A stretch of 33,778 bases of DNA from an uncultured bacterium (GTDB lineage: Bacteria > Verrucomicrobiota > Kiritimatiellia > RFP12 > UBA1067). The stretch covers positions 1 through 33,778 of the forward strand of contig CACZCD010000013.1 of NCBI GenBank assembly GCA_902779565.1. The letters are read 5' to 3'. The position numbers and the translations under genes are program-made. The notes under the pieces were generated by a model. It ran no database searches and was not told where the DNA came from. It saw only the letters and a program-made list of their open reading frames with translations. Below, piece by piece: positions 16,919 through 30,417 of the stretch (the stretch's first letter is position 1; each line of letters opens with the position of its first letter).

Positions 16919-18123
16919 ACCTCTACATCCATTTCCCGTTCTGTCGGAGCAAGTGCGCCTACTGCGCCCTTCACTCCTATGTCGGACGCTCCGAGAAAGA
17001 ACGCGACCAATACGTTGATGGCATCCTCCATCAACTCCATCAGCTCTTTCCCTCCACCCCTCTTCCCTCTTCCCCCTTCCCACTTCCCTCTTCCCTTTTC
17101 CCTCTTCCCTCTTCCCTTTTCCCTCTTCCCTCTTCCCCTATCTCCACCCTCTACTTCGGCGGCGGCACGCCCGCGCTCTGCAACCTCCAGCCCCTGCTGG
17201 ATTTCCTCGCCCCCCATCTCTCCCCAGCTCTCAACCCTCAACCCTCATCCCCCAACTCTCAACTCAAAACTCTAAACTCTAAACTTCCGACCGAATTCAC
17301 CGTTGAACTGAATCCGTTGGACGTCTCGTCGGAACTTTTGCGGCAGCTGAAAGCGGGAGGCGTGAACCGTCTCTCCATGGGTGTACAGAACTTCGACGAG
17401 GCAATCCTGCGCGCGATGGGTCGCCCCCACACCGCCGAACAGGCGCAAACAGCCTGGCGTCAAATCCGCGAAGCCGGTTTCGACAACGCTGGCATCGATC
17501 TCATCTGCGGATGGCCCGGCGAACGGCAGAACGGCGCGGTCTCAGATTCTTGGAAGCGGACGCTCGATGCGGCGGCGGAACTTGCGCCAGACCATTGTAG
17601 CGTCTATACGCTGATTCTCGAACCCAAGACGCGTCTGGCGCGTGACGTGGCGAGCGGTCGCGTCACCCTACCCTCCGACGATGTTGCGCTCGCGGAACTG
17701 GCGGCGGCAGAGCAGGCGCTTGCCGCCATCGGATTGGAGCGCTACGAGATCTCCAGCTTCGCCAAGCCGGGCTGGGAGTGCCGACACAATCTGGCGACCT
17801 GGCGCGGCGAGGACTACATCGGCATCGGGGATGGTGCCTGCAGCCGCGAGGGGAACGCTGAGTCGAGGGTCATTTTCCGTCTGCGTCTTTTGAAGGAAGG
17901 ATTCTCCCCTGCTCAGGCGGCGGTGGACTTCCCGGAACTCGCACCGCGCGTGGCTGAATGGTGCGCCACTCTTGACCGCTTTGTCGCCGAAGGTCTCCTC
18001 ACCTCTCACCCCGCCCCTCTCAAGCAGTCCCCTGTAACTCGCAACTCGAAACCCGAAACGACTTACTGCCTCACACCACGCGGCACGGAGGTCTGCGACA
18101 CCATCCTCGCTGAACTTGTCTGA
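16915..18123 (+). CDS. hemW: HemW-type radical SAM heme chaperone with inserted repeats
   Basis: A 402-residue radical SAM protein whose C10-x3-C14-x2-C17 (FCRSKCAYC) binds the 4Fe-4S cluster; GGGTP at 82-86 and ELNP at 131-134 are SAM-binding motifs of HemW and its CPO-like relatives. HemW delivers heme to membrane enzymes; true coproporphyrinogen dehydrogenases carry an extra N-terminal segment not present here. The start TTG 16915 overlaps the previous stop (TTGA), so translation is coupled. Three non-conserved inserts, made by heptamer DNA repeats, sit at residues about 46-75 (LFPLPSS repeats), 103-124 and near 368-382. They lie between core elements, so the fold may survive, but heptamer slippage would shift the frame. 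Radical SAM call sure; HemW assignment probable. Confidence 0.8.
   Translation: MNLYIHFPFCRSKCAYCALHSYVGRSEKERDQYVDGILHQLHQLFPSTPLPSSPFPLPSSLFPLPSSLFPLPSSPISTLYFGGGTPALCNLQPLLDFLAPHLSPALNPQPSSPNSQLKTLNSKLPTEFTVELNPLDVSSELLRQLKAGGVNRLSMGVQNFDEAILRAMGRPHTAEQAQTAWRQIREAGFDNAGIDLICGWPGERQNGAVSDSWKRTLDAAAELAPDHCSVYTLILEPKTRLARDVASGRVTLPSDDVALAELAAAEQALAAIGLERYEISSFAKPGWECRHNLATWRGEDYIGIGDGACSREGNAESRVIFRLRLLKEGFSPAQAAVDFPELAPRVAEWCATLDRFVAEGLLTSHPAPLKQSPVTRNSKPETTYCLTPRGTEVCDTILAELV
17063..17139 (+). repeat. Heptamer array TTCCCTC x11 inside hemW
   Basis: Eleven contiguous 7-mers of the TTCCCTC type (variants TTCCCTT, TTCCCCC, TTCCCAC, TTCCCCT) span 77 bases, almost all pyrimidine. Read in frame they give a repeated LFPLPSS. 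The unit is not a multiple of three, so one unit gained or lost shifts the hemW frame. Confidence 0.85.
17229..17284 (+). repeat. Heptamer array TCTCAAC x8 inside hemW
   Basis: Eight 7-mers in perfect register: TCTCAAC, CCTCAAC, CCTCATC, CCCCAAC, TCTCAAC, TCAAAAC, TCTAAAC and TCTAAAC. It is degenerate and therefore probably older than the TTCCCTC array. Confidence 0.8.
18034..18061 (+). repeat. Heptamer array GNAACYC x4 near the hemW end
   Basis: Four 7-mers GTAACTC, GCAACTC, GAAACCC and GAAACGA fall in the C-terminal part of hemW, where the protein reads VTRNSKPET. It is the third heptamer array in this gene. Confidence 0.6.
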
Positions 18124-20180: not shown

Positions 20181-21454
20181 CTGCTCTCTCGTCCTTTTCC
20201 CGCCACCAGGATTTCGCGCGCCGCAATCTGGATCGGATCGCCATCGGCCTGAAGGTACGCCATCGCACCGTCGAGACGCGCCGACGCCTCCGCGCGGGCG
20301 GCAGGGTCTGAAAGCCATGCCGTCAGCTGCTTTGCCACCGCCTCGGACGTAAAATCCTCCTGAAGGAGTTCAGGCATGGGCGGCTCAAATCCGCACTTCT
20401 CGGCGATGATGTTCGCAAGCCCCGCATGACGCACCCCCGTGATGGCGCGACGCAGGATCCAAGCCAGAAGCGGCGACACCGCATACACCAAAACTGTCGG
20501 GCACCGCACAAGCGCCGCCTCCAATGTTGCCGTACCGCTTGCCACCGCCGCGCAGTCCGCGCTGCGCAGCAGGGCGCGCGCCTGACCGCGCCAGACCTCC
20601 ACGGGCGGCAGCCCCTCAAATGAGGCGAGAATGCGGCCAATCTCACGCTCCGCCCTCTCGTTCGCCGCCGGAATCACTATCTTCAGGGTCTGTCCCCGTT
20701 CCTCTTTTAGGGTCTGTCCCCCAGTTTCTGGGGTCTGTCCCCCTACTTGCAGGGTCTGTCCCCCAGTCTCATTTAGGGTCTGTCCCTTTGCAATCAGCGT
20801 AACGGCTTTAAGTAGCCGCGGCAAGATTCGCTGAATCTCTCCCATCCGCGAACCTGGCAAAAGTGCAACAATCCGCTCTTTTCTTCTCAAAACCGGCGCT
20901 CTTTCAGGGTCTGTCCCCGTCTCTTTTGCGGGGCCTGTCCCCGCGTCCTTTATAGGGTCTGTCCCCACAGACTTTATGCTTTCATCCTTCACCATACCCA
21001 CGAGCGGATGGCCGATGAACTTCGCATTAAGGTCTGTCCCCTTGAAGATCTCGGGTTCGAACGGGAAGAAGCAGAGCAGCTCCGTGAGCGCCGCCGCAAC
21101 CTTCGGAACGCGTCCGCGATGCCAGGCCCACACCTGCGGACAAACGATATGAACAGCGGGTATCCCCAGCCCTTTCGCGTAGGCGGCAAGCTTCAGGTTC
21201 ATCCCGGGGTAGTCGATCGTGACCACCACATCCGGTCGCCATTCGCGGATGGCCCGCTTCATCGTATGCGCAACGCCGAGAAAATAGAAGATCCGGCGCA
21301 CGACCTCCCAAATCCCGAACACCGCGAGATCGGCCGTCTGAAACCCATAGTCGCCATAGCCGCGCACCTCTGCCCCGGAGTCCCGCAGGATTTCCGCGAG
21401 ACGCTCCGCGTAGAGCACGCCGGACTCCTCGCCGGCCAGCAGCAGGGCCTTCAT
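20177..21454 (-). CDS. lpxB: Lipid-A-disaccharide synthase with repeat-derived insertions
   Basis: A 425-residue GT19 protein; most LpxB are near 380. It shows the family start KALLLAGEESG, PQVWAWHRGRV (residues 106-116), FIGHPLVG near 146 and LLPGSRMGEIQRILPRL (199-215), followed by the C-terminal GTATLEAALVRCPTVLVYAV block. It joins UDP-diacylglucosamine to lipid X at the inner membrane to make disaccharide-1-P for LPS. Two insertions stand out: residues about 161-186 (GTDP/GTGP repeats) and 223-257 (GGQT repeats), coded by nine copies of an 11-bp sequence. The first lies between FIGHP and LLPGSR, the second between the LLPGSR helix and the KIVIPAANE strand, both likely loops. ATG 21454 follows the esterase stop by two bases. 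Confidence 0.9.
   Translation of the reverse strand: MKALLLAGEESGVLYAERLAEILRDSGAEVRGYGDYGFQTADLAVFGIWEVVRRIFYFLGVAHTMKRAIREWRPDVVVTIDYPGMNLKLAAYAKGLGIPAVHIVCPQVWAWHRGRVPKVAAALTELLCFFPFEPEIFKGTDLNAKFIGHPLVGMVKDESIKSVGTDPIKDAGTGPAKETGTDPERAPVLRRKERIVALLPGSRMGEIQRILPRLLKAVTLIAKGQTLNETGGQTLQVGGQTPETGGQTLKEERGQTLKIVIPAANERAEREIGRILASFEGLPPVEVWRGQARALLRSADCAAVASGTATLEAALVRCPTVLVYAVSPLLAWILRRAITGVRHAGLANIIAEKCGFEPPMPELLQEDFTSEAVAKQLTAWLSDPAARAEASARLDGAMAYLQADGDPIQIAAREILVAGKGRESR
20686..20786 (-). repeat. REP-like GGGTCTGTCCC array, five copies, inside lpxB
   Basis: Five perfect GGGTCTGTCCC cores start at 20686, 20710, 20731, 20752 and 20776, with starts 24, 21, 21 and 24 apart. All spacings are multiples of three. 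Read on the coding strand each core gives GQT. The core is an imperfect palindrome (GGG-n-C-n-G-n-CCC). Confidence 0.9.
20907..20965 (-). repeat. REP-like GGGTCTGTCCC array, three copies, inside lpxB
   Basis: Cores start at 20907, 20931 (GGGCCTGTCCC variant) and 20955, spaced 24 and 24. Their frame in lpxB differs from the first array: these read GTDP, GTGP, GTDP. Confidence 0.85.
21030..21040 (-). repeat. Single REP-like core inside lpxB
   Basis: AGGTCTGTCCC differs from the consensus by one base and is read as KGTDL in LpxB, between the PFEPEIF strand and AKFIGHP. It may be a ninth copy or chance. Confidence 0.5.
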
Positions 21455-26396: not shown

Positions 26397-27974
26397 TCAC
26401 CGCTCAAGGAACCGGCCGGTGCCGGCATGGGTGAAGATGCCGGCGTCGTAGGCGAGCGCGCCATTCACGAACACCTTGTCCATGCCTGTGCAGAAGGAAT
26501 GGCTCTTCGCGAACGTGGCCGTATTGCGGAACTCCCCTTCACGCCAGATTGCGATATCCGCAAACGCCCCCGCCGCCAACACACCCCGATCCCGGATACC
26601 GAAACGCCGGGCGGGAATCGACGTCATCCGCGCAATCGCCGTCTCGCGGCCAGCCTTCGCGGCGACACGCCGGTAGAACTCCGGCATGGTCCCGTAGGCG
26701 CGCGGATGCGGATGGTCGGCGGCGAGCGGACCCCACGGCGCACGCAACGACGCGTCACTGCCCGGCACGATCCACGGCCTCGAATAGATCTTCTCCAGAT
26801 TCTCCTCGCTCATTCCGAAAAAGAAAGCACCCGTGCGGCAAAGATCCTTTTCGAGAATCCTGCAGACGAGTTCGCCCGGCGTTTTCGCCGGACATCCGGA
26901 ATCATCGAGAATTTCGGCGATCGTGCGGCCGGGATAATCCTTGTTGTCGGCGTGCCACACGCCGCCCACCATCACCGAGGACCAGTCCCGCTCCTGCGCA
27001 TCCAACTCTGCCACGATCCGCGCCCGCAGCGACGGTGTCTGGAGCCGTTCCATCTCCGCCGGCGCGCCGCCCTCCCCCGCCCAATCGGGGAACACCACAT
27101 CCAGATCGGTGCCCGCCGCGCAGAACGGATACCGGTCGCTGCCGAGCAGAAGCCCCGCGTCGATGGCATCCTGCATCTTTTCAAGCACAGCATCAATCTT
27201 TCCCCAGTTCCGCTGCCCGCTCGTCTTGAGATGCGAGATCTCCGCGCGAATGCCCGTCGCCTTCACGAGCGTCAGCACCTCGTCGATTGCCTCAAGGATC
27301 CGGTCGCTCTCGCTCCGCATGTGCGTCGCGTAGAAACCGCCGCGCGCAGCCGCAGTCTGGGCGAGGGCCACGACCTCTTCGGGCGTGGAATACTTTCCGG
27401 GTTGGTAGATGAGTCCCGTCGTAAGCCCCCAACCGCCGTCATCGAGTTCGCGTGCGAGAAGCCGTTGCATCTCCTTCAGTTCGTCAGGCGTGCAGGCGCG
27501 TCCGCGATAGCCCACGACCGACGACCGCAACGTGTTGTGCCCGATGAACTGCACCGTGTTGATGGCGGGCTTCGCCGCCGCCAGCACCTCACGGTATTCG
27601 GCCAGCGAACGCCAGGTTAGCCGTTCGCCCAAAATGCTCGCCCAGTCCCCCGACAGACGCGCCTCGCCGTAACGGGGCGCGATGCTGCCGCCGCATTGTC
27701 CGTTGATCTCCGTCGTGACACCCTGACTCAGCTTGCTCGGGGCATCCGGCTCCACCACAAGATAGGCATCGCTGTGGCTATGTGCGTCGATGAACCCGGG
27801 CGTCACAAGGGTTCCCGTCGCGTCCACGATCTGGTCGAAGCCACTCTTGTCGGAAATCTCCGTTCCGTCCGCCGTCACGGCGGCGATGCGGTCGCCTTCA
27901 ATGATGACGTTCCCGCGAAACGCCGGCTCACCTGTCCCGCTGACAAGGGTTCCGTTCTCGATCAGGATGCGCAT
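26397..27974 (-). CDS. N-acyl-D-amino-acid deacylase (amidohydrolase)
   Basis: A 525-residue amidohydrolase of the D-aminoacylase group. Metal-site motifs are PGFIDAHSHSD with HSH at 65-67, C96 in NGQCGG (the Cys ligand typical of D-aminoacylases), the ATHMRSES and SHLKTSG stretches with His ligands, and the GSDASLRAPWG segment carrying the later Asp. It removes N-acyl groups from D-amino acids, or hydrolyses related cyclic amides, and takes part in cell-wall or D-amino acid turnover; the exact acyl and amino acid cannot be fixed. Its ATG shares one base with the nfeD-like stop (TGATG), so it is coupled to that gene. There is no signal peptide, so it is cytosolic. Confidence 0.8.
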   Translation of the reverse strand: MRILIENGTLVSGTGEPAFRGNVIIEGDRIAAVTADGTEISDKSGFDQIVDATGTLVTPGFIDAHSHSDAYLVVEPDAPSKLSQGVTTEINGQCGGSIAPRYGEARLSGDWASILGERLTWRSLAEYREVLAAAKPAINTVQFIGHNTLRSSVVGYRGRACTPDELKEMQRLLARELDDGGWGLTTGLIYQPGKYSTPEEVVALAQTAAARGGFYATHMRSESDRILEAIDEVLTLVKATGIRAEISHLKTSGQRNWGKIDAVLEKMQDAIDAGLLLGSDRYPFCAAGTDLDVVFPDWAGEGGAPAEMERLQTPSLRARIVAELDAQERDWSSVMVGGVWHADNKDYPGRTIAEILDDSGCPAKTPGELVCRILEKDLCRTGAFFFGMSEENLEKIYSRPWIVPGSDASLRAPWGPLAADHPHPRAYGTMPEFYRRVAAKAGRETAIARMTSIPARRFGIRDRGVLAAGAFADIAIWREGEFRNTATFAKSHSFCTGMDKVFVNGALAYDAGIFTHAGTGRFLER

Positions 27975-28423
27975 CAAACCGCTTCCACGGTGAGCGTAAG
28001 ATTTCGCCGCGAGACCACCCGCACGCGCGCGCCGGCGGCAATGGAGGCATTCGAGACGGCATCCCACTCGGCATCGCCCAGCACCACGCGCCCCGGCACG
28101 CCGGGGGAGAGGGAAGTGATGGCCTCGCCCATACGTCCCGAAAACTCGTCGCCCAACGCCGCGCCCTTGCCGTTGTCACCGAGGAACACATTCTTCACAT
28201 AGCGGCGAAGCGTCACGAGATAGACGAGCGAAAAGAGCGAGAAGAGCGCAAACTGCCACATGAGCGTCGGGCTGAACGGCTCCGGCAGCAGCAGCACGAG
28301 CAACCCCACCGTCGCGGCCGAAAGCCCAAAGAAAAACATCACGAAACCGGGCGTGAGAATCTCCGCGAGCATTAGGCCCGCGCCCACATACATCCAGATC
28401 CAACCGTTGCTAAGAAAATCCAT
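27974..28423 (-). CDS. NfeD-like membrane protein
   Basis: A 149-residue protein with two hydrophobic blocks (residues about 9-47, and 57-70) followed by a C-terminal OB-like domain (GRMGEAITSLSPGVPGRVVL and AGARVRVVSRRNLTLTVEA), as in short NfeD or YbbK proteins. NfeD partners of stomatin-type proteases help membrane-protein quality control; no stomatin gene is adjacent here, and the partner is an amidohydrolase gene instead. ATG 28423 has a strong AAGGAGG site, and the promoter is at 28444. The last segment, VEAV-stop, forms the TGATG overlap with the next gene. Confidence 0.7.
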   Translation of the reverse strand: MDFLSNGWIWMYVGAGLMLAEILTPGFVMFFFGLSAATVGLLVLLLPEPFSPTLMWQFALFSLFSLVYLVTLRRYVKNVFLGDNGKGAALGDEFSGRMGEAITSLSPGVPGRVVLGDAEWDAVSNASIAAGARVRVVSRRNLTLTVEAV

Positions 28424-28443
28424 GGTTTTCCTCCTTGCCGCAC

Positions 28444-28452
28444 ATTATATCA
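28444..28452 (-). promoter_or_regulatory. Extended -10 promoter of the nfeD-like operon
   Basis: The minus strand reads TGA-TATAAT (28452-28444) then GTGCGGC, with AAGGAGG before ATG 28423. The leader is about 15-20 bases. Confidence 0.65.
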
Positions 28453-28529
28453 TTTTTCGCCTAACTGTGCGCAACACGCCTTAGACCGAAATGTAATGGT
28501 TACTGAATTGTGGACAGAAGGCATGGGGA

Positions 28530-28638
28530 ACTCTCCCCCTGAGACAGGGGGAGCGCCCCGGAGGGGCGAGGGGGTATGATCCGTCGCCAGTCATACTCCC
28601 CCGGCCTCCGGCCACCCCCTCTATCTTAGAGGGGGAGT
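28530..28638. mobile_element. 109-bp multi-hairpin palindrome (MITE/REP-like)
   Basis: Five hairpins fill the element: CTCCCCCTG-AGA-CAGGGGGAG (28533-28553), CGCCCC-GGA-GGGGCG (28554-28568), a central GGGGGTATGA against TCATACTCCCCC (28570-28602), GGCC-TCC-GGCC (28603-28613), and CCCCCTCTA-TCT-TAGAGGGGG (28615-28635). The outer ends ACTC(T)CCCCCT and AGGGGGAGT also pair. No coding sequence is inside and no transposase is near. Such compact palindromes move with help from a distant transposase; terminator activity for recJ is also possible. It fills much of the 281-base gap 28424-28704, which has no gene. Confidence 0.6.
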
Positions 28639-28701
28639 CTGCATTCTCGTAATATCATCCTGCATTCCCATAATATCATCCTGTATTTCCATGATGTGAT
28701 C
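28639..28701. repeat. Three 21-bp tandem repeats
   Basis: CTGCATTCTCGTAATATCATC, CTGCATTCCCATAATATCATC and CTGTATTTCCATGATGTGATC lie end to end with no spacer. They fill the space between the palindrome and the recJ stop at 28705. The 21-bp period equals two helical turns, so bound factors would sit on one face. Confidence 0.8.
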
Positions 28702-28704
28702 CAG

Positions 28705-30417
28705 TCAAGCGGACGCACGATCCGCTGCACTTGAAACACCGCAAAGACGGAGTTCCAGATGCGGCTCTTCGCCGCCCCAATCGGAAACGTCTAGCGTAAA
28801 CGAAATGTCATAGCGGTTCATCGCCCGCGCGCGCAACCCCTCGACCCGATCGCCACGACCCCACCAGGTTGCGCGCGGAATGCGCTTGTCGGAAAACGAA
28901 AATACGGCGTGCTTACCGCTCTCGCCGATGGGCTGGGCATCGGCGAACGTGACGCCACGCAGACCTAGAACCGGCTCAGGATTCCCTTCGCCGAACGGCT
29001 CCATCACCTGAAGCTCCTCATAGAGATCCATCGTCAGATCCTCGGGTGCCACCCAAAGTTCCGGCGCGCGGAAATCCACCTTCTCCACAACACCCACCGA
29101 CGCCCGCTGCTGCGCACACGCTTCCGTGAACGCCGCCCTGAAATCCGCGAAGCGTCCCTCCTTGACGGAGAATCCGCCCGCCGCCGTGTGTCCACCAAAA
29201 CGCTCCAGGAGATCCGTGCACGCCGTCAAGGCGGCATGCACATCATAGCCCTCCGGCGCACGAACGCTTCCACGTCCGCCGACCGACACCGCCACCGGCA
29301 CGCCGAACCGGTCTACCAGCCGCGACGCGACAATTCCACAAACACCTTGCCGCTTCAAGGTACCGTCCCCCGCCTCATCGTTCACCACAACAGCCGACGG
29401 CGACGAATCCTTCACCTGCGTCAACGCCTCCGCCATCATGTCGTTCTCGACCGACTTGCGCGTCATGTTATGCCGATCCACAATCTGCGCAAGGTTGCGC
29501 GCGGTCTCCCGGTCTTCGGCCATCAATAGATCGTAGGCGGCACGGGCCGAATCCATGCGGCCGGCGGCGTTGATGCGCGGACCCAGCAGAAATCCGAAAT
29601 CGCGCGAGGTGAGATCGACCGCCCGGCGCTGCGCCCGGAGCAGAAGCTCCTTGAGTCCGACAGGGGCGGCGGCAAACGCCTTCAGCGCATTCGCCGCCAG
29701 AATCCGGTTCTGTCCGAGCAGCGGCACGATATCCACCACCGTCGCAAGCCCCGCCAGAACCATCAGCGGCGCCCCGAACTTTCCGCCGTCGTAAAGCCCC
29801 GTCTCCGCCGCACGCGCGGCCAGCGCATTCGCCAGAAAGAAAGCGACGCCCGCCCCGCAGATCTCCTTCGCACCCAGCGCCTGTGCCGCTTCGCTCTGCG
29901 CGGCGATCTTGGGATCGACCAGCGCCTCGCAGACGGGAAGCGTCTCTGGGGGCAGATGGTGGTCCGTCACCACGACCGACACGCCGCGCTCCCGCAGCAT
30001 CTGCACTTCCGCCGACGACGTGATACCGCAATCGACCGTCACAACCAGCGCTGCCTCCGGATGCTCCGAAAGCATCCGCTCGACGCTGGCAACCGTCATG
30101 CCATAGCCCTCCGTGAACCGGTCCGGCAGAAACGCCTCGGCTTTCCCGCCGAGACGCCGCACCGTCGTCACCAGGATGGCGCTCGCGCAGACGCCATCAC
30201 AGTCATAGTCCCCGAAGACGACAATCGGCCGCTTCTCGCGGACGAACGGCAGAATCACCTCAACGGCGGCGGAAATGCCCGGAAGCGCCGGCGCCCGGGC
30301 AATGCGTTTCAACGAAGGATCGAGGAATTCTTCGCGCGCCGTTCCGGATAGGCCTCGCTGGGCCATCAACTTTTCAACTATGCCGCACACATCTTTCGCT
30401 AACGGACGCGCCGTCAC
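28705..30417 (-). CDS. recJ: Single-stranded-DNA-specific exonuclease RecJ
   Basis: A 570-residue RecJ, a 5'-3' ssDNA exonuclease used in recombination and mismatch repair. DHH-family motifs are GDYDCDG (residues 69-75), VTVDCG (127-131), TDHHLPP with DHH at 152-154, and later the DHHA1 motif GHTAAGGF. The usual GSGRS-type loop reads GGRGSVRAPEGYDVH. Its full length and domain order fit the family. GTG 30417 overlaps the fabZ stop as GTGA, so RecJ is coupled to the fatty-acid genes, which is an odd partner. No strong ribosome site is seen, consistent with coupling. Confidence 0.85.
   Translation of the reverse strand: MTARPLAKDVCGIVEKLMAQRGLSGTAREEFLDPSLKRIARAPALPGISAAVEVILPFVREKRPIVVFGDYDCDGVCASAILVTTVRRLGGKAEAFLPDRFTEGYGMTVASVERMLSEHPEAALVVTVDCGITSSAEVQMLRERGVSVVVTDHHLPPETLPVCEALVDPKIAAQSEAAQALGAKEICGAGVAFFLANALAARAAETGLYDGGKFGAPLMVLAGLATVVDIVPLLGQNRILAANALKAFAAAPVGLKELLLRAQRRAVDLTSRDFGFLLGPRINAAGRMDSARAAYDLLMAEDRETARNLAQIVDRHNMTRKSVENDMMAEALTQVKDSSPSAVVVNDEAGDGTLKRQGVCGIVASRLVDRFGVPVAVSVGGRGSVRAPEGYDVHAALTACTDLLERFGGHTAAGGFSVKEGRFADFRAAFTEACAQQRASVGVVEKVDFRAPELWVAPEDLTMDLYEELQVMEPFGEGNPEPVLGLRGVTFADAQPIGESGKHAVFSFSDKRIPRATWWGRGDRVEGLRARAMNRYDISFTLDVSDWGGEEPHLELRLCGVSSAADRASA

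Follow-up and report, generated by a model that had tools for sequence, protein, structure and literature searches.

A 109-bp five-hairpin element behind recJ is probably a gene-less member of a REP-like repeat family associated with DUF559 genes

Structure of the element

We analysed a stretch of 33,778 nucleotides from an uncultured bacterium (hereafter the window). The initial annotation had described an element of 109 bp with five hairpins and symmetrical halves at positions 28530-28638. This is borne out, and the ends given for the element coincide to the base with those of two half units in inverted order. Each half unit follows the same plan: a large C/G hairpin, a small hairpin and then a tag ending in GTATGA. 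Read on the other strand, the right half has the plan of the left half in different letters and ends in GGGGGAGTATGA. The two tags face each other over 11 bases, and their pairing makes the fifth hairpin. The features of the locus are listed below, where R1 denotes a covariance model of the half unit.

27974..28423, minus strand: 149-aa open reading frame, downstream neighbour, called nfeD in the initial annotation (ORF list; name unconfirmed)
28530..28579, plus strand: left half unit, 50 nt (R1 match C13:28531-28579 (+), E 2.8e-22)
28533-28553, plus strand: large hairpin of the left half, CTCCCCCTGAGACAGGGGGAG
28555-28567, plus strand: small hairpin of the left half, GCCCCGGAGGGGC
28568-28579, plus strand: tag of the left half, GAGGGGGTATGA
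28580..28590, no strand: spacer of 11 nt separating the two tags, which forms the loop of the middle, fifth hairpin
28591..28638, minus strand: right half unit, inverted, 48 nt (R1 match C13:28591-28637 (-), E 3.8e-21)
28591-28602, minus strand: tag of the right half, TCATACTCCCCC
28603-28613, minus strand: small hairpin of the right half
28615-28635, minus strand: large hairpin of the right half
28639..28701, no strand: direct repeats of 21 bases in three copies (CTGCATTCCCATAATATCATC type), corresponding to the arm of a larger TIR element seen around other copies (22 bases identical to the right arm of class A)
28705..30417, minus strand: recJ, upstream neighbour on the same strand as the downstream ORF (TIGR00644, E 1.4e-113, 380 bits, slightly missing the curated cut-off of 396.9)

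The DNA fold of positions 28510-28660 has an energy of -39.4 kcal/mol; 200 dinucleotide shuffles average -27.1 (z -4.2), and none of them was as low. No open reading frame of at least 80 aa on the ORF list covers the element. An Rfam scan of the whole window gave no gathering-level match, no promoter-like site was found on the element, and two pattern searches retrieved it as a single copy within the window. Among the neighbours, the name recJ was confirmed by the match to TIGR00644, while nfeD remains an unconfirmed name because the 149-aa ORF has no NCBIfam match at E<=0.001. The window also contains, at 17037-17148, 7-base tandem repeats of the CCCTCTT/CCCTTTT type.

We aligned 20 half units, seven from the own genome and 13 from other fetched contigs. 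In this alignment 97.8% of the cells pair and 8 of the 14 pairs change on both sides. Double changes occupy 42 cells, where shuffles average 11.9, and the covariation score was reached by none of 500 shuffles. When the partner is slid by 1-3 columns, pairing falls to 47-60%. The number of further pair types is unremarkable (16, shuffle mean 16.4). Eight of the 13 foreign rows were fetched using the right large hairpin as a search pattern, so the constancy of this hairpin in those rows follows from the search itself; no such bias affects how the small hairpin varies, or how left and right halves differ. Half units resembling those of the window also occur in Bacteroidales, where the letters of the small stem differ and the pairing is kept. 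The structure of the half unit is under constraint.

Copies in the own genome and in other bacteria

A search for further copies had been suggested, and the own genome (4.09 Mb in 322 contigs, completeness 95.92) holds many. A DNA search gave 46 matches, the best other copies being 97% identical over nearly their full length. With R1 we obtained 78 half-unit matches at E<=0.001 from the 150 of 1497 first-look candidates that were scored, and 76 of them lie below 1e-12. When neighbouring half units less than 600 bp apart are paired, they form 26 pairs with inward tags, four with outward tags and one on the same strand, leaving 16 singles, some of which are near contig ends. All inward pairs except one are gene-less and enclose a spacer alone (25 of 26). 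This spacer has 12 nt in 19 pairs, 2, 14, 14, 21 and 31 nt in five others and 11 nt in the window copy. The remaining pair encloses 373 bases.

The distribution of the repeat among genomes is patchy. Named genome contigs contain the exact 23-base right hairpin in at least 101 stretches; judging by the record titles, 100 of these belong to Bacteroidales groups, many of them from ruminant samples, and one to a Kiritimatiellae bacterium. Among 288 genomes of the window's phylum, with the 21 best candidates per genome scored, R1 matched 45 at E<=0.01, including 10 at E<=1e-5. The 13 other genomes of the same family gave one match in total, and a single genome of another family (G217) gave 19. R1 also matches, at E<=1e-5, 17 of the 198 genomes in the order to which one Bacteroidales genome belongs. 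This patchy pattern is consistent with mobile DNA that gut bacteria have in common. The right hairpin is also present at two places on one IMG/VR contig (L296 2277-2299; L297 728-750).

A DUF559 gene between half units

Locus L287 gave the first indication of a gene: its half units lie on either side of an ORF of 130 aa that matches the DUF559 family (PF04480, E 9e-28). The own genome has a single DUF559 match, and it lies inside the inward pair that encloses 373 bases on contig C85:

C85 11375-11421, plus strand: upstream half unit, tag towards the DUF559 gene, identical to the right half of the window copy (48/48 bases)
C85 11466-11783: DUF559 gene match, between the half units
C85 11795-11842, minus strand: downstream half unit, tag towards the DUF559 gene, a diverged left half

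The ATG within the GTATGA tag is an in-frame possible start codon of this DUF559 ORF (L324 about 1450-1460). On C134 (L069) the ATG of the tag is likewise in frame, as the possible start of an ORF with a signal-peptide-like beginning.

We detected DUF559 in 31 of 49 repeat-bearing genomes. The other 18 lack a match; many of them are incomplete assemblies, which may or may not explain the absence. At 12 of 30 DUF559 loci from repeat-bearing genomes, facing R1 half units (E<=1e-5) lie within 150 bp on both sides, and at 15 of the 30 one R1 half unit lies within 200 bp. Gene and repeat also co-occur at the genome level: in the 288 phylum genomes, DUF559 (E<=1e-10) is present in 6 of 10 with the repeat (E<=1e-5) versus 33 of 278 without it (Fisher p 6e-4).

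A model-free flank test compared the best inverted repeat between the 300-bp flanks of a locus with those of 100 shuffles, and a locus passed when it scored above all of them. This was the case for 24 of 30 DUF559 loci, 12 of 29 Y1 loci (L181 was left out of the 30) and 1 of 30 recJ loci. Y1 elements with terminal repeats are known, and hence the test reveals flanking repeats rather than their kind. Among DUF559 loci taken from the 288 phylum genomes and not chosen for repeats, 15 of 17 new strong ones passed, as did five of six more that had been tested in the round of 30 loci. The controls, weak DUF559-like parts of long ORFs, did not (0 of 6; L350 was left out of seven). In this phylum sample, most of the repeats flanking DUF559 have other sequences (CCCTCACCCC..CCCTCTCCC..GGGAGAGGG and the like) and few are recognised by R1, so that their shared feature is the design. 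Ten plasmid loci were taken from 10 of the 31 records with a match, which belong to alphaproteobacteria, cyanobacteria and Deinococcus; eight of the ten passed, two of them narrowly (29 versus 28 and 27 versus 26). Searches of open PMC articles, which leave subscription papers and preprints outside, gave no title or abstract start linking DUF559 to repeats, and no relevant title on Vsr with REP or on palindromic elements, homing and Vsr; among the articles listed, none dealt with the present repeat.

Our main reading, to which we give a probability of about 0.62, places the 109-bp element in a REP-like mobile family as a member without a gene; the member that carries the gene encodes DUF559, a small Vsr-like PD-(D/E)XK endonuclease. 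The initial annotation had proposed a MITE or REP-like mobile unit. This proposal is supported, as the element is multi-copy, has no strong counterpart at 29 other recJ loci, is patchily distributed and is built like the two ends of the DUF559 unit in the own genome. Counting against the main reading are the 18 repeat-bearing genomes without DUF559 and the DUF559 loci that fail the flank test (6 of 30, 2 of 17 and 2 of 10). The Y1 loci that pass this test, the differing sequences of the DUF559-flanking repeats in the phylum sample and the TIR element described next also weigh against it.

A larger TIR element around many copies

Many copies in the own genome are enclosed by a larger element with the TIR GGTAATGTCGCAAAGTTGGGGATG and 21-base arms (including L002, L003, L014, L017, L020 and L026). 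We parsed 24 copies, leaving out one that failed the parsing pattern (L024) and one cut by a contig end (L025). At least one TIR is present in 14 of the 24, and both are present in 11. Six of these 11 have perfect 8-bp target duplications; the flanking 8 bases match at 7/8 in one more and poorly, at 2/8 or 4/8, in two. The target-site duplications sought following the initial annotation thus exist for the larger element that encloses many copies; for the 109-bp unit by itself none were found. TIR ends are missing from about half of the copies. TIR-less copies L016, L018, L021 and L023 have a common second type of left flank (..AATGT.CACAAATATT..GCATTGCCAC) and sit shortly upstream of apparent gene starts.

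With up to three mismatches, the TIR was found in three of 288 genomes of the class: the own genome, G321 of the same genus and G336 of the family. The search for a transposase with matching ends, also suggested earlier, identified no such gene with GGTAATGTCGC ends; the associated gene is the DUF559 endonuclease, not a classical transposase. In Bacteroidales the hairpin core is found inside an element with quite different ends, AACGTGAGTTCGACGAA (L080, L089, L127 and others; 12 of 118 places). At L127 the AACGTGAGTTCGACGAA-ended element seems inserted in another hairpin copy.

The right side of the window copy matches the class A right arm exactly (22/22 bases, with none of 1000 shuffles as high), and this match is to the 21-base arm only. 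A left TIR is not significant there (216 and 86 of 1000 shuffles as high). Because the right arm is present and a recognisable TIR is absent, the window copy is probably a decayed member of the TIR element.

These patterns bear on an alternative, namely that the window copy is part of a classical MITE, in which the hairpin pair would be cargo between TIRs moved by a DDE-type transposase that leaves 8-bp duplications. The TIRs and duplications of the own copies argue for it, together with the right arm of the window copy. It has to contend with the left side of that copy, the copies that lack TIR ends, the Bacteroidales cores within other ends and the missing transposase gene. We hold this alternative to be a serious one, at somewhat under even odds, and it is compatible with the main reading. 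Since many copies lie in a TIR element with 8-bp duplications, a DDE-type element probably picked up the hairpin pair and spread copies of it, and the TIR element could have spread many own copies without DUF559. We rejected the TIR element as the whole answer, as it fits a subset of the copies only.

In-frame units and the enzyme

DUF559 units with their hairpins are found in frame inside conserved genes, often those of type I restriction systems. We observed them in HsdR (L328, L333, L334, L337) and HsdM (L329, L330, L340), and also in EPSP synthase (L319), GHMP kinase (L313) and isoleucyl-tRNA synthetase (IleRS, L304). The frame is continuous in the last case, and the two IleRS parts align to residues of a solved enzyme up to 538 and from 542. 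Gene-less half units lie inside open frames of the own genome on C30 (at least 433 aa) and C46 (at least 367 aa). These two cases are weak evidence of in-frame location, because Pfam names neither protein and long open frames are common in this DNA. On C5 and C8, half units close to further genes were checked for open frames, and nothing notable emerged.

The DUF559 proteins of ten loci share invariant positions that include R, Q, D, E, D and H. Their profile matches the solved structures 3hrl (E 1e-32) and 3r3p (E 3e-4), the latter a mobile-intron protein, the enzyme I-Bth0305I. A DUF559 protein of Caulobacter is presented in the literature as a Vsr-like PD-(D/E)XK endonuclease with a predicted role in mismatch repair (PMC12907096). 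Judged by these profile matches and this description, DNA cutting by DUF559 is likely and homing-type spread is plausible.

Homing could also make DUF559 a passenger. Hairpin pairs would then move by other means, and a homing-type DUF559 gene would invade the spacer of existing pairs, which serve as its empty target. The position of the gene, exactly that of the spacer in gene-less pairs, agrees with such an invasion, and so does the profile match to a mobile-intron protein. However, whole hairpin-gene-hairpin units sit in frame within conserved genes, and quite different repeats flank DUF559 in other groups, which is easier to understand if gene and hairpins travel together. We consider the passenger explanation unlikely.

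Position behind recJ

Strong hairpins between two genes of the same strand might also act on the transcript behind recJ, as a terminator, an insulator or mRNA-stabilising hairpins. A scan of positions 28300-28900 revealed one terminator-like site, at 28339-28356, off the element. The terminator between recJ and nfeD proposed in the initial annotation thus lacks sequence support, even if such a scan cannot exclude an effect on the transcript. We scanned 30 recJ loci with R1: the own one and 29 more, drawn from the 50 further genomes of genus and family with a recJ match. The 29 include three from the same genus (G345, G342 and G321); the loci extend at most 1.5 kb past the match and some end at contig ends. 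Strong half units were found at the own locus only (E 7e-24 and 1e-22), and three other loci gave weak matches (E 0.008 to 0.09). A single copy at a position conserved in relatives would have spoken against a mobile unit; we found many copies in the genome and no strong half unit at the 29 other recJ loci. Half units elsewhere also lie inside reading frames, and a functional transcript element appears quite improbable.

RAYT genes

The own genome has Y1_Tnp matches, as do 17 of 25 repeat-bearing genomes; 8 of 25 right-hairpin genomes have none. By pattern, half units occur near Y1 genes at 1 of 35 loci, and the own loci (five, two of them overlapping) are negative. With R1 they were found at 4 of 30 foreign Y1_Tnp loci, the nearest 345 bp from the gene match. 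The own RAYT genes adjoin GGGACAGACCC repeats. Repeated AGGGTCTGTCCCC motifs occupy positions 20677-20970 of the window, and on the other strand this motif stands beside own RAYT genes on C251 and C207 (L076 about 1239-1320; L074 about 2260-2580). Given this location, AGGGTCTGTCCCC may be the repeat partner of RAYT in the own genome.

Paired tagged palindromes in many copies, and the Y1_Tnp matches themselves, would suit an ordinary REPIN, a REP doublet mobilised by the tyrosine transposase RAYT. We rejected RAYT as the partner because half units do not adjoin Y1_Tnp genes. With genomes that lack Y1_Tnp, a GTATGA tag instead of GTAG and own RAYT genes beside another repeat, this explanation is largely refuted and has very little probability left.

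Discussion

Bacterial genomes often carry REP-like repeats, and their spread is usually attributed to RAYT. We regard the DUF559-associated paired-hairpin family as a variant of the REP/REPIN kind, in which the repeat looks ordinary and the partner is unusual. We infer that DUF559 mobilises the repeat, on the strength of sequence comparisons. Two half units with inward tags bracket either the DUF559 gene (one copy, on C85) or a spacer of 2-31 bases (25 copies, that of the window included). In the mechanism that we propose, DUF559 would bind or cut at the hairpins or tags, or at a target, and copies would spread in a homing-like manner through break repair or strand transfer. The window copy reached its place behind recJ probably within the larger TIR element, now decayed, and need not act there.

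A broader proposal is that paired palindromic repeats of several bacterial phyla form a large superfamily whose dedicated mobiliser is DUF559. This would be the homing-type equivalent of REP-RAYT, comprising units with the gene, gene-less pairs and insertions in essential and restriction genes that keep the reading frame. We advance it tentatively, as slightly short of an even chance. If DUF559 partners another large group of palindromic repeats, this would give a function to a domain whose name still marks it as unknown. It would also help to explain identical hairpins in distant gut bacteria, and it predicts a reaction between nuclease and hairpin that can be tested. The mobile unit would be one able to sit in frame inside genes such as those of IleRS, EPSP synthase and HsdR.

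Comparison with known systems

The family resembles a MITE in that many own copies are enclosed by an element with TIRs and 8-bp target duplications. It differs from a MITE in that the hairpin core also occurs without TIR ends and, in Bacteroidales, inside other ends.

A 2013 survey found no dedicated transposase for a whole superfamily of REPs. It presents CGTC-tagged REPs as REP-like dimers, names no dedicated transposase for them, and describes them with stems of 8-9 bp that start with A-T pairs and with a CGTC end (PMC3733652). The family studied here resembles these REPs in forming REP-like dimers. By that description, however, its half units fit neither the stem nor the CGTC end, and we therefore set this identity aside (PMC3733652).

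The likeness to a Vsr-like homing endonuclease such as 3r3p lies in the distant relationship to DUF559 and in a nuclease gene carried by a mobile element. The gene of 3r3p, by its name, goes with an intron, whereas the DUF559 gene stands between palindromic half units and has gene-less derivatives.

The parallels with the REPIN and GTAG REP-RAYT systems are the following: short tagged palindromes, inverted pairs, many copies and one gene between the same palindromes. The family differs from REPIN-RAYT in that the gene encodes a DUF559 endonuclease and not a Y1 transposase, and in that each half consists of two hairpins. Its tag ends in GTATGA (GGGGGAGTATGA or GAGGGGGTATGA), where GTAG REPs have GTAG or similar.
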